Of a stretch of DNA of 64,000 nucleotides, positions 8,769 through 29,823 are shown piece after piece. The DNA comes from Pseudomonadota bacterium (GTDB lineage Bacteria; Pseudomonadota; Alphaproteobacteria; Reyranellales; Reyranellaceae), in the NCBI GenBank assembly GCA_020160955.1, contig JAIUOX010000008.1, positions 1 to 64,000 of the forward strand, written 5' to 3'. Each line of letters opens with the position of its first letter. Position 1 is the stretch's first letter. A program made the position numbers and the translations under genes. Below the pieces are notes generated by a model, which saw nothing but the letters and a program-made list of their open reading frames with translations, had not been told where the DNA came from and did no database searches.

Positions 8769-10613
8769 TCAGGCCGCCTGGGCGCGATACATCGCGTCGA
8801 TTTCGGCCTTGTACTTCTTGTTCACGAAGCTGCGCTTCAGCTTCATGGTCGGCGTCAGCTCCTCGTCTTCCGGCGTGAGCTGCTGTTCGATCAGGTAGAA
8901 GCGCTTGATCGTCTCCACCCGGGCGAAGTTCACGTTGACCTTCTCGATCTCGGCCCAGATCAGGTCCTGCACTTCCTTGGAGCGGCACAGGCTGGCGTAG
9001 TTCGTGAAGGGCACGTCGTTGTCCTGCGCGAACTTCTCGACCGTCTCGCGCTCGATCATGATCAGGCAGGTGAGGTAGGGGCGGCGATCGCCGACCACCA
9101 CCGCGTCGCTGATGTAGGGCGAGAACTTGAGCTGGTTCTCAATCTCCGAGGGCGTGATGTTCTTGCCGCCCGCGGTGATGATGATGTCCTTCATGCGGTC
9201 GGTGATCTTGACGTAGCCCTCGTTGTCGATCGCGCCGACGTCGCCGGTGTGCAGCCAGCCGTCCTTGTCGACGGTCTCGGCCGTCTTCTCCGGCTGGTTG
9301 AGGTAGCCCATGAACACGAAGTCGCCCTTGATCAGGATCTCGCCGACCGGCGAGATCGTCACCTGGCCGTAGGGCACCGACTTGCCGACCGTGCCGAGCT
9401 TGATGCCGTTGGCCGGCATGGCGGTCGCCAGCCCGCAATTCTCGGTCTGGCCGTAGACCTCGAACATGTCGAGGCCGAGGGCGAGGTACCAGCGGATCAG
9501 TTCGGGCGCGATCGGCGCCGCGCCGGTGAACAGCCAGCGGCAGCGGTCCAGCCCGATCATCTTGCGGACGTTGCGCAGCACCAGCCAGTAGGCGACCTGG
9601 AAGCGCGCCTTCTCGAAGGCCGAGGGCTCGCGCCGCTCGATGCGGGCATCGGCGATGGCGAAGCCGGCGTTGATCGCCTTCTGGTAGGCCCACTGCTGCA
9701 GCGGCGTAGCGTCCTTCAGCGCGATCATGATGCCCGAGTAGAACTTCTCCCAGACCCGCGGCACGGCGCCGAACAGGGTGGGCTGCACCTCGCGGATGTT
9801 GTCCGGCACGGTCTCCGGGCTCTCGGCGAAGTTCGAGCAGACGCCGGTCGCGACCGAGTAGTAGCTGCCGGCGATGCGCTCGGCGACGTGGCACAGCGGC
9901 AGGAAGGCCAGCCGCTCGTCGCCCTCGTACCACGACAGCGACAGCTCCGGGTGCATGCAGTTCTTCATCTGGTACACGACGTTGCGATGGCTGTGCATCG
10001 CGCCCTTGGGCGCGCCGGTCGTGCCCGAGGTGTAGACCAGGATGGCGAGGTCGTCGGGCGTGCGCGAGTTGACCAGCTCGTCGAACAGTCCCTCGCGACC
10101 CTGCGCGTAGTTGCGGCCGATCGACATGAACTCGTCCATCGACACGACCATCGGGTCGGCGAAGTCGGAGAGACCCTCCATGTCGAAGACCACGATCTTC
10201 TTCAGGGTCGGGCAGCGCTCGCGCACTTCCAGCGCCTTGTCGAGCTGCTCGTCGTCCTCGACGAACAGCACCACGGTGCGGGAGTCGTTCACCAGGTACT
10301 CGACCTGCTTGGCCGAGTCGGTCGGGTAGATGCCCGACGAGACGCCGCCGGCGCACAGGATGCCGAAGTCGGCGTAGTTCCATTCCGGCACGGTGTTGGC
10401 CAGCACCGAGCCGACGTCGCCCGGCCGGAAGCCCATCTCGTGCAGGCCGAAGGTCACGGCGCGCGCCCGCTCCAGCCACTCGGTCCACGAGATCGCGTTC
10501 CAGATGCCGTAGAGCTTCTCGCGCATCGCCGGCCGGTCGCCGCGCGTCTGGCAGGACAGCACGAAGCTCTTGGGCAGAGTCTCGGCCACCGTCAGCGTCG
10601 CCTTGGTCGCCAT
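8769..10613 (-). CDS. AMP-dependent long-chain-type acyl-CoA synthetase within the liv operon
   Basis: Adenylate-forming ligase of 614 residues, expected to make an acyl-AMP and then an acyl-CoA. The P-loop YTSGTTGAPKG lies at about residues 194-204. YGQTENCG is the A5-type motif, GWLHTGDVG supplies the hinge-region Asp, and Lys591 in TPTMKLKR is the likely catalytic lysine. Length and motif wording resemble the FadD15/bubblegum group rather than short-chain ligases. It sits between livF and the receptor gene with 30-40 base gaps. The operon therefore appears to import an organic acid and activate it at once to a CoA thioester. The acid is not identifiable from sequence. Confidence 0.9.
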   Translation of the reverse strand: MATKATLTVAETLPKSFVLSCQTRGDRPAMREKLYGIWNAISWTEWLERARAVTFGLHEMGFRPGDVGSVLANTVPEWNYADFGILCAGGVSSGIYPTDSAKQVEYLVNDSRTVVLFVEDDEQLDKALEVRERCPTLKKIVVFDMEGLSDFADPMVVSMDEFMSIGRNYAQGREGLFDELVNSRTPDDLAILVYTSGTTGAPKGAMHSHRNVVYQMKNCMHPELSLSWYEGDERLAFLPLCHVAERIAGSYYSVATGVCSNFAESPETVPDNIREVQPTLFGAVPRVWEKFYSGIMIALKDATPLQQWAYQKAINAGFAIADARIERREPSAFEKARFQVAYWLVLRNVRKMIGLDRCRWLFTGAAPIAPELIRWYLALGLDMFEVYGQTENCGLATAMPANGIKLGTVGKSVPYGQVTISPVGEILIKGDFVFMGYLNQPEKTAETVDKDGWLHTGDVGAIDNEGYVKITDRMKDIIITAGGKNITPSEIENQLKFSPYISDAVVVGDRRPYLTCLIMIERETVEKFAQDNDVPFTNYASLCRSKEVQDLIWAEIEKVNVNFARVETIKRFYLIEQQLTPEDEELTPTMKLKRSFVNKKYKAEIDAMYRAQAA

Positions 10614-27220: not shown

Positions 27221-29302
27221 TCAGAACGCCTTGGCCAGCGTCAGGCGGAGCGCCAGCGGCTCGAGTGGGTGGAAGTGGCGGTCGGCGACGCCGCCGGCCG
27301 GCTCGCCGGGCAGCCGCGAGGTGTAGAAGTAGTCGATCTGGCTGGCCTGCGTGTTGAGCAGGTTGTAGGCGTCGAGGTTGAGCTTGATCCCCGACTCGAA
27401 GATGTAGCCGACGCGGCCGTTCAGCGTCGTGGTGAAGGTCGACCAGACGCTGCCGTCGCTGACCAGCGGCCGCGGGCCGAGGCTGCGCAGCCGCAGCGCG
27501 CCGAACCAGCCGGTGTCGCCGCCCAGGGTCATGCCGGCCGAGCCGACGAAGTCGGGCGCGCCGGGGATCAGGTCGCCGTCGGGCGACCAGTCGGTGAAGC
27601 GGGCGCGGGTGAAGGCGAGGTCGAGGTCGAAGCTCGCCCACGCCGCCGGTCGATAGCTGTTGGTCCACTCGACGCCGACGCGGCGGCTCGGCCGGCTGGC
27701 GATCGTGGTGCCGGCGTCGCCGACGAACAGCAGTTCCGAGTTGAAGTCGAGCAGGAACAGGGCGAGCGACGTGTCGTAGCCCTTCAGCGCCTGGCTGCGC
27801 ATGCCGATCTCGGCGCCCTTGGACTGGACCAGCAGCGGCACCGCGGCGACCGGCTGGGTCGGGTCGGCCGGGTTGACCGTGATGGTGGCGCCGCGCGCGT
27901 CGTTGCTGTGATAGCCGAAGCCGCCGTTCAGGTAGAACTCGGTCCGCTCGAACGGGCCGAACACCACGCCGGCCTTGGGGCTGGCGAGGAAGGCCGACGT
28001 GGTGCCCGAGTTCAGCGACTGGGTGGTGCTGTCGACCGAGGCCATGAACAGGTCGCCGCGCACCCCCAGCGTCACCCTCAGCCAGTCGGTCCATTGCGTA
28101 GCGTTGCGGGCATAGAGGCCGACGCTGGTCTCGCTCACCTGGTCGTAGCGGGTGGTGCCGTAGGCGGTGCGCTGGAAGGTCGGGAACAGCCCGACCCCGA
28201 TGTCGTCGTAGCGCACTTGCGTGCCGAGCGTCGTCTCCGAGCGGAAGCCGGCCAGGCCGTGGTTGAACGACTGGCTGGCGTTGAGGCCGAAGACCTTGCG
28301 CTTGTCGCTCTGCTGGAACTGGTCGCCGAGGTCGGGATCGTCGAGGTAGTAGGTGAAGTTGTTGTAGAGATTCAGCGTCGAGTAGATGGCGTAGGCCTCG
28401 ACCAGGCTGGCGCCCTTGTCGCCGCTGCGGCTCCAGCGCATCGACAGCGAGTAGCGCTGGGTGTCGCCGCCGTCGGTCTGGTCGACCGCGCCCCAGCGCG
28501 ACAGGCTGCCGTCGAACACCGCGCGGTTCGGCACCTGGTCGGTGGCGTGCCACGAGTTGGTGTAGGCGAGCGCGGTGATCGACAGGCCGTTGTCCGGCGT
28601 GCCCTCGGAGTAGCGCAGGAAGCCGTTGAACTTGCGCAGCGCGTCCGAGGCCTGCCACGGCCCGTCGTAGAACACCGTCTCGGCGGCGGCGGTGATGAAG
28701 CCGGCGCCGGCGGCGAACGAGCCGGCGGCAAGGCCGCGCCAGTAGCCGAAGCTGCCGCCGGTCGCCAGCACGACGTTGCGCTCGAGCCGGTCGGCATAGG
28801 CCAGGCGCAGCGTCCCGGCCGAGGCGAAGTCGCCTTCCTCGGCCCAGTACGGACCCTTCTTGACCGTCATGCGCTGCAGCAGCTCGGGGATCAGGAAGTT
28901 GACGTCGGCGTAGCCCTGGCCGTGGCCGTGCGTGCGCATGTTGAGCGGCATGCCGTCGAGCCACAGCGCGAGGTCGGTGCCGTGGTCGAGGTTCATGCCG
29001 CGCAGGAAGTACTGGTTGGCCTTTCCCTCGCCCGAGTGCTGCGTGACGATCAGGCCGGGCGCCGCCTCGAGCACCTCGCCCGGCCGCTCGATCGGCCGCG
29101 TGTTCAGCGTCTCGCCGGAGATGCGCTTCTCGCTGGCCGCGTCGGTCGGCTCGGCCTCCAGCGCGCGCGGCGCGATCACCGTCACCGCCGGCAGCGCGGT
29201 CGATGCGCCGGTGCCGGGACCGAACGGTTCGGGGGACTGCGCACGGGCCGCTCCGGCGGCCAGGGCGAGCAGCCCGAGCAGGGCGAGCGGGCGCGTATGC
29301 AT
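27221..29302 (-). CDS. TonB-dependent outer-membrane receptor, probably nickel or nickel-chelate uptake
   Basis: Outer-membrane TonB-dependent transporter of 693 residues from the chosen start (an in-frame ATG at 29320 would add six). A signal peptide (MHTRPLALLG onward, cleavage near GAARA-Q) precedes the plug domain, which contains VLEAAPGLIVTQHSGEGKAN, a His-rich THGHGQGY segment and the VKKGPYWAEEGDF segment. The rest is a predicted 22-strand barrel, ending in the aromatic-final signature LAKAF. The nickel assignment rests on the divergent nikR gene and the shared operator at 29295-29322, not on the receptor itself. A hemophore, siderophore or cobalamin ligand cannot be excluded. No nikABCDE or TonB/ExbBD genes are in the window. 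Confidence 0.88.
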   Translation of the reverse strand: MHTRPLALLGLLALAAGAARAQSPEPFGPGTGASTALPAVTVIAPRALEAEPTDAASEKRISGETLNTRPIERPGEVLEAAPGLIVTQHSGEGKANQYFLRGMNLDHGTDLALWLDGMPLNMRTHGHGQGYADVNFLIPELLQRMTVKKGPYWAEEGDFASAGTLRLAYADRLERNVVLATGGSFGYWRGLAAGSFAAGAGFITAAAETVFYDGPWQASDALRKFNGFLRYSEGTPDNGLSITALAYTNSWHATDQVPNRAVFDGSLSRWGAVDQTDGGDTQRYSLSMRWSRSGDKGASLVEAYAIYSTLNLYNNFTYYLDDPDLGDQFQQSDKRKVFGLNASQSFNHGLAGFRSETTLGTQVRYDDIGVGLFPTFQRTAYGTTRYDQVSETSVGLYARNATQWTDWLRVTLGVRGDLFMASVDSTTQSLNSGTTSAFLASPKAGVVFGPFERTEFYLNGGFGYHSNDARGATITVNPADPTQPVAAVPLLVQSKGAEIGMRSQALKGYDTSLALFLLDFNSELLFVGDAGTTIASRPSRRVGVEWTNSYRPAAWASFDLDLAFTRARFTDWSPDGDLIPGAPDFVGSAGMTLGGDTGWFGALRLRSLGPRPLVSDGSVWSTFTTTLNGRVGYIFESGIKLNLDAYNLLNTQASQIDYFYTSRLPGEPAGGVADRHFHPLEPLALRLTLAKAF

Positions 29303-29322
29303 TTCCGGAAAATTATGCATAC
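29295..29322. promoter_or_regulatory. NikR-type operator, 28-bp palindrome
   Basis: The sequence reads GTATGC-N16-GCATAC, the half-site spacing known for NikR in Escherichia coli (GTATGA-N16-TCATAC). The inner bases extend the symmetry to an 8-bp perfect inverted repeat (GTATGCAT at 29295-29302 and ATGCATAC at 29315-29322). It lies 30 bases before nikR and covers the start of the divergent TonB receptor, so nickel-loaded NikR could repress both. Confidence 0.8.
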
Positions 29323-29339
29323 TCCATGCCGGGCAGCAA
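29312..29339 (-). promoter_or_regulatory. Candidate sigma-70 promoter of the TonB receptor
   Basis: On the minus strand, TTGCTG (29334-29339) and CATAAT (29312-29317) are separated by 16 bases. The -10 box lies inside the NikR operator. The expected transcript start would be only a few bases before the ATG at 29302, so the mRNA may be nearly leaderless. Confidence 0.4.
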
Positions 29340-29352
29340 TCCGGAGTCCGCC

Positions 29353-29823
29353 ATGCAGCGCATTACCCTGTCGATCGACGACGACCTGGCGCAGGTGCTC
29401 GACCGGCACATGACCGACCATCGCTACGACAGTCGCTCCGAGGCGCTGCGGGACATCCTGCGCGCCGTGGCGGTCCGGCAGAAGCTGGAGGACGAGGCCC
29501 GGGGAGCCGACGGCTTCTGCATCGCGACCCTGTCCTACGTCTACGACCACGAGACCCGCGATCTCGGCCGGCGCCTGACCCAGGCGCAGCACGCCCACCA
29601 CGACCTGCAGGTCTCGACCCTGCACGTCCATCTCGACCACGATGCCTGCCTCGAAGTGTCGGTGCTGCGCGGCCCGACTCGCGAGGTGCGGTCGCTGGCC
29701 GACCAGACCATGAGCCAGCGCGGCGTGCGCCACGGCCAGCTGCACGTCATCCCCGCCGAGCGTCAGACGCGGCGCCACCGGCATGGCACCGGCCCGCACG
29801 ATCACGAGCACATCCACGCGTAG
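29353..29823 (+). CDS. nikR: Nickel-responsive transcriptional regulator NikR
   Basis: A 156-residue NikR. Residues 1-50 are the ribbon-helix-helix DNA-binding domain (RITLSIDDDLAQVLD). The C-terminal ACT-like domain carries the high-affinity nickel site at His80 (QAQHAHHD), His91 and His93 (TLHVHLDH) and Cys99. These correspond to His76, His87, His89 and Cys95 of E. coli NikR with a constant offset of four. The C-terminus after VIPAE is an extra tail with six His in the last 16 residues, not part of the standard domain. CCGGAG precedes the ATG by six bases. With nickel bound it should repress the divergent receptor gene and probably itself. Confidence 0.95.
   Translation: MQRITLSIDDDLAQVLDRHMTDHRYDSRSEALRDILRAVAVRQKLEDEARGADGFCIATLSYVYDHETRDLGRRLTQAQHAHHDLQVSTLHVHLDHDACLEVSVLRGPTREVRSLADQTMSQRGVRHGQLHVIPAERQTRRHRHGTGPHDHEHIHA

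Follow-up and report, generated by a model that had tools for sequence, protein, structure and literature searches.

A conserved palindrome at the start of a TonB-dependent receptor gene as a probable NikR operator in a genus of Reyranellaceae

The locus described here, in which nikR and the gene of a TonB-dependent receptor diverge from a perfect palindrome, bears on the way nickel passes the outer membrane in bacteria other than Helicobacter. The locus lies in a window (the whole stretch of DNA that was analysed, 64,000 nucleotides) from an assembly of 5,075,562 bases, 87% complete and 5.9% contaminated. Its features are as follows:

27221-29302, minus strand: gene of the TonB-dependent receptor, 693 aa when counted from the start codon within the operator (Plug and TonB_dep_Rec_b-barrel domains, orthologs, AF2 model)
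28913-28933, minus strand: THGHGQG segment of the plug, residues 124-130; both His are invariant in 38 family members; a low-confidence loop of the model
29295-29322, no strand: predicted NikR operator GTATGCAT-N12-ATGCATAC, an exact palindrome, found in 17/17 genus genomes with nikR and receptor
29300-29302, minus strand: likely receptor start ATG within the operator; ATG or GTG in 17/17 orthologs, followed by signal-peptide-like sequence
29312-29317, minus strand: putative -10 element CATAAT within the operator; CATAAT, CACAAT or CACTAT in most orthologs
29334-29339, minus strand: putative -35 element TTGCTG, 16 nt from the -10 element, proposed from ortholog comparison
29353-29823, plus strand: nikR, 156 aa (Pfam, NCBIfam and PDB comparison)
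29770-29820, plus strand: C-terminal NikR tail rich in His (RRHRHGTGPHDHEHIHA), shared by almost every NikR of the genus and lying past the end of E. coli NikR

The 28-bp palindrome reads GTATGCAT-TTCCGGAAAATT-ATGCATAC and is exact: GTATGC and GCATAC stand 16 bases apart and belong to perfect arms of 8 bp each, all of which a first-pass annotation of this DNA had described and a reading of the sequence bears out. The site also conforms to the operator pattern GTATG-N18-CATAC (inverted arms over 28 bp). It had been placed between nikR and the receptor gene; this is right on the nikR side, where the nikR start codon is 30 bp away, but on the other side it extends into the 5' end of the receptor gene. 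With the 8-bp arms and up to three mismatches, the pattern matches once in the window, against a mean of 0.03 in shuffles. In the whole assembly, GTATGC-N16-GCATAC occurs at one site without mismatches and nowhere with a single mismatch, and the sites with two mismatches resemble chance matches; the scan for further copies that the first-pass annotation had proposed returned no second one in these 5,075,562 bases, and the operator-pattern scan of this 87% complete assembly found no other NikR targets. NikR may serve one site in the source genome.

The assignment of the regulator is based on several profiles. PF01402 and PF08753, i.e., the ribbon-helix-helix N-terminus and the nickel-binding NikR_C domain (106.5 bits), are above cut-off, as is NCBIfam NF002815 (182 bits, cut-off 83); the score against TIGR02793 is 165.8 bits, under the cut-off of 175.45. 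With ligand positions taken from the literature (PMC7055735), the nickel ligands H80, H91, H93 and C99 correspond to His76, His87, His89 and Cys95 in E. coli numbering. Of the DNA-reading residues, R3 and T5 are kept, and S7 replaces T7. A recognition rule by which S7 for T7 goes with GTATGCA for GTATGA fails, as L049 combines T7 with a GTATGCA site. Tails like that of the window protein, with 4-8 His in about 12-19 residues, are carried by nearly all genus members and several other Proteobacteria (L048-L064, L120, L134, L161, L178, L181), and a literature search found no description of them.

The product of the divergent gene, for which the ORF tool set the start at 29320 rather than at the likely 29302, matches Pfam Plug and TonB_dep_Rec_b-barrel over cut-off. 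Its AF2 model (pLDDT 85.8) is good apart from the HGHGQG loop and the N-terminus, and matches the structures of FecA, FhuA and PqqU, in agreement with a plug and a 22-strand barrel. PqqU/YncD is both the nearest solved fold (TM 0.78, 18% identity over the fold) and the best profile match, which falls in the barrel, while a single-protein comparison with this PQQ transporter gives no sequence match; the likeness of the modelled fold is too distant for naming the ligand. As to a TonB box, an LPAxTVTAP-like conserved segment was seen by eye near the mature N-terminus. The THGHGQG segment of the plug had been taken as a pointer to nickel. It is indeed present, but it cannot serve as a nickel signature, because it is family-wide and its two invariant His are shared by members behind cobalamin riboswitches; both are likewise invariant in G100, where nickel genes are absent nearby.

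The site was also compared across 61 genomes of the genus. Receptor orthologs (62-85% identity) are found in 18 other genomes and nikR in 22 of the 61: 17 genomes have nikR and receptor, two the receptor alone, five nikR alone and 37 neither (Fisher p = 7e-9, not corrected for kinship). The site is kept over GTATGCA-N14-TGCATAC in all 17 genomes with both genes, with at most one mismatch over the 7-bp arms in 16 of them and two in G023, while its spacer and surroundings vary freely. It is missing from the two receptor loci without nikR (G017 and G020), and neither a GTATGCA nor a GTATGA box was found in the genomes that have nikR and nikABC-like genes without the receptor. In G024 and G049 nikR is located on another contig and a perfect site stays beside the receptor; the site therefore travels with the receptor. 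Scanning the 61 genomes with the 7-bp-arm pattern showed exactly one site in most carriers, and NikR may therefore serve a single operator in the genus.

Several further observations concern individual genomes. A second GTATGCA site in G004 (L110) lies apparently inside a predicted gene. Imperfect GTATCCGC...GCGGCATAC sequences occur near nikR, at the expected operator position, in L103 (10385-10412) and L104 (6390-6417), whose genomes have nikABC-like genes and no receptor. G024 and G049 have, in addition to the receptor gene, a divergent operon facing the operator (L056 8700-11686 and L059 10756-14640); it includes DUF2946 and a second TonB receptor and might be under NikR control as well.

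These data bear on two readings in which the receptor would owe nothing to the palindrome. That the palindrome arose by chance is a practically negligible possibility: only the general frequency of short palindromes speaks for it, and it is ruled out by the conservation of one site per genome within diverged surroundings, together with the genome counts and the near absence of matches in shuffles or in a reversed-pattern control. It is also very improbable that the site serves nikR autoregulation alone, with the receptor as a bystander. The short distance to the nikR start codon would suit such a role, but G024 and G049 rule it out as the sole one, since their receptors keep the perfect site away from nikR, and no site accompanies nikR in G024. 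Furthermore, a NicO/NiCoT permease gene separates site and nikR in G001, G027 and G041, and the receptor start codon lies inside the site in 17/17 loci. We thus return to the proposal of the first-pass annotation, a NikR operator controlling a nickel-uptake receptor, which gains support here from a site that is conserved, follows the receptor and is gone where nikR is gone.

The position of the site within the receptor gene was compared across the 17 loci, which are related to one another. In receptor orientation, operator positions 6-11 read CATAAT, CACAAT or CACTAT in most loci, TTG stands 17 or 18 nt ahead of the operator in 16/17 orthologs, and position 21 begins an ATG or GTG in 17/17, after which a plausible signal peptide follows; in the window this start codon (29302-29300, MHTRPLALLGLLALAAGAARA...) sits in the left arm. 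No Shine-Dalgarno sequence precedes the position-21 codon in the 17 loci, and a consensus promoter scan detected no sigma-70 promoter at the receptor, TTGCTG being a weak -35 element. In L023-L025 the palindrome is broken at position 8 and the purine at position 21 is kept, as needed for a start codon. The simplest reading would be a leaderless receptor mRNA, with NikR covering its -10 box, start site and start codon together. With a likely -10 element and the start codon of the receptor both inside the site, Ni-NikR would seem to block this leaderless mRNA directly.

The proposed switch would operate as follows. With enough nickel, Ni-bound NikR would occupy the palindrome and hide the receptor's likely start codon, transcription start and -10 element from RNA polymerase, which could then not start; with the polymerase kept off the promoter, nickel uptake would stop. 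When nickel is short, NikR would leave and the receptor would be made from its apparently leaderless mRNA. The divergent nikR, with its start codon so close, would probably also be affected by bound NikR. Altogether, the sequence evidence makes it very probable that NikR uses the palindrome as the operator of an outer-membrane nickel-import receptor of the TonB-dependent type, receptor expression being blocked when NikR is nickel-bound. The imported form of nickel would probably be a chelate, and cobalt may possibly be taken up too. Points that speak against this account are the sixth base of each arm, which departs from the E. coli operator, the negative promoter scan, and the nickel genes missing from the 87% complete source assembly; the cobalamin riboswitches of some family members weigh against a ligand of nickel only.

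Nickel genes accompany the locus in relatives. Besides the permease genes mentioned above, G004 has nikABC-kind SBP_bac_5 and BPD_transp genes next to its nikR-receptor pair, and members of the same clusters neighbor nikR in genomes with nikR and without the receptor. Such NiCoT and nikABC-like neighbors add to the case for a NikR-controlled nickel receptor. Nearly all of the genus genomes examined carry urease. In the 87% complete source assembly, urease, UreD and [NiFe] hydrogenase were not seen, nor was a strong NiCoT gene; for the first three this may be an assembly gap. A search of the source genome for a nikA-like importer retrieved only SBP_bac_5 proteins with 23-33% identity. On another source contig (C81; L205 5212-6921), a gene encodes a remote member of the NicO family that has a long His-rich loop; most genus genomes give weak NicO matches that score similarly, whether or not they have nikR.

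The receptor belongs to a much wider family, with at least 588 relatives in a scan of named genomes. The best 80 of these, from Alpha-, Beta- and Gammaproteobacteria, were considered with 6 kb flanks: 20 have nikR nearby, 12 a NiCoT permease, and eight [NiFe] hydrogenase genes. At 29 of these 80 a GTATGA-type or GTATGCA-type NikR box (at most one mismatch) is present, against 0-1 in shuffled loci, and 38 of the 80 have at least one of these four markers. HupE_UreJ_2 genes occur at six of the 80 loci, all without other nickel markers. In a FastTree phylogeny the window receptor belongs to a clade with good support in which GTATGCA boxes are found, whereas Bradyrhizobium-type receptors have GTATGA boxes; operator letters therefore vary by lineage, with length and outer bases constant. 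Downstream of family members in Janthinobacterium (L183, L186, L192 and L193), matches to the Rfam family Betaproteobacteria_toxic_sRNA are found near position 10400.

The cargo can be read in more than one way. A receptor shared by nickel and cobalt, or used mainly for cobalt, with NikR control as one of several acquired regulatory inputs, is a possibility that we take seriously while leaning against it. In three members from Methylobacteriaceae (L142, L149 and L162) a cobalamin riboswitch immediately precedes the receptor gene, and the receptors of L141 and L142, from two Methylobacterium species, share 96.7% identity, the former standing behind a NikR box with a single mismatch (L141 5687-5714) and the latter behind the riboswitch (L142 5571-5770); the corresponding cluster in the literature is also named for nickel and cobalt. 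Within the window's genus, however, NikR is the only regulator seen and the site vanishes with nikR, and the window itself holds no cobalamin riboswitch. Another kind of cargo (copper, zinc or a PQQ-like cofactor, for instance), with NikR control as a side link, appears quite unlikely. The PqqU/YncD fold would be in its favor, as would the genes of a DUF2946 cluster and a PCu(A)C-like cluster near the receptors of G017 and G020, which have no nikR; identity to PqqU over the fold is nevertheless just 18%, and the association with nikR, NiCoT and hydrogenase genes is repeated across classes. The alternation between NikR box and riboswitch would be best accounted for by a nickel-chelate receptor that also suits cobalt. 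A broader reading, which we hold with slightly less than even confidence, is that the family carries nickel and cobalt chelates and swaps the NikR operator for a cobalamin riboswitch with the receptor nearly unchanged, and that in the window's genus operator, -10 box and start codon of a leaderless mRNA are united in one element, within a single-site NikR regulon. Near-identical receptors under NikR or B12 control offer a clean natural comparison for the receptor cargo, and so does a single conserved NikR site that is gone where nikR is gone.

Comparison with known systems places the receptor among those already predicted. Bll6948, Daro_3944, RPA_4757, pHCG3_081 and Daro_1684 form one nickel/cobalt cluster, cluster 987 (PMC3400609), two members of which are predictions by Rodionov et al. 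2006 (PMC7142613), and a predicted Ni/Co receptor cluster is described elsewhere as lacking any experimentally tested member (PMC2771747); Bll6948 and Daro_3944 are listed as TBDTs “known” for nickel in one source (PMC11247825) and marked as predicted in another (PMC7142613). The pHCG3 receptor shares 51% identity with the window receptor over 92% of the protein, and its locus has nikR, NikR box and receptor in the same layout, with adjoining hyp genes; we infer that this single family member on pHCG3 is the listed pHCG3_081. Its kinship, together with the NikR site and nikR at the window locus and NiCoT genes in relatives, puts the receptor in the Bll6948/pHCG3_081 family, in line with the first-pass annotation, which had referred to nickel TonB receptors predicted by comparative genomics. 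On plasmid pHG1 of Cupriavidus necator, a family member lies 4.4 kb from a HoxN-type permease. According to the literature, H. pylori FrpB4 and FecA3 are TonB-dependent nickel receptors repressed by NikR, as proposed here; FrpB4 belongs to a different receptor cluster, with heme receptors (PMC3400609), and its likeness to the window receptor is one of proposed function and regulation. The NikR of E. coli (PMC7055735) is of the same protein family as that of the window, with the same nickel ligands, R3 and T5, and its nikABCDE operator GTATGA-N16-TCATAC (PMC7055735) has the same length and GTATG/CATAC ends. The window site does not match these E. coli letters, as the sixth base of each arm differs (C instead of A), a form kept throughout the genus; moreover, the predicted target is a receptor instead of an ABC importer, and the window NikR has the His-rich tail. 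Taken together, these comparisons support a genuine nickel-uptake switch in the NikR-receptor pair, conserved among relatives and of a type that had been predicted in other bacteria before. What differs here is the operator dialect and the fusion of the predicted operator to the likely receptor start codon: compared with the listed pHCG3/Bll6948 systems, the window locus has GTATGCA instead of GTATGA arms, an operator that holds the start codon, and no hydrogenase genes nearby.
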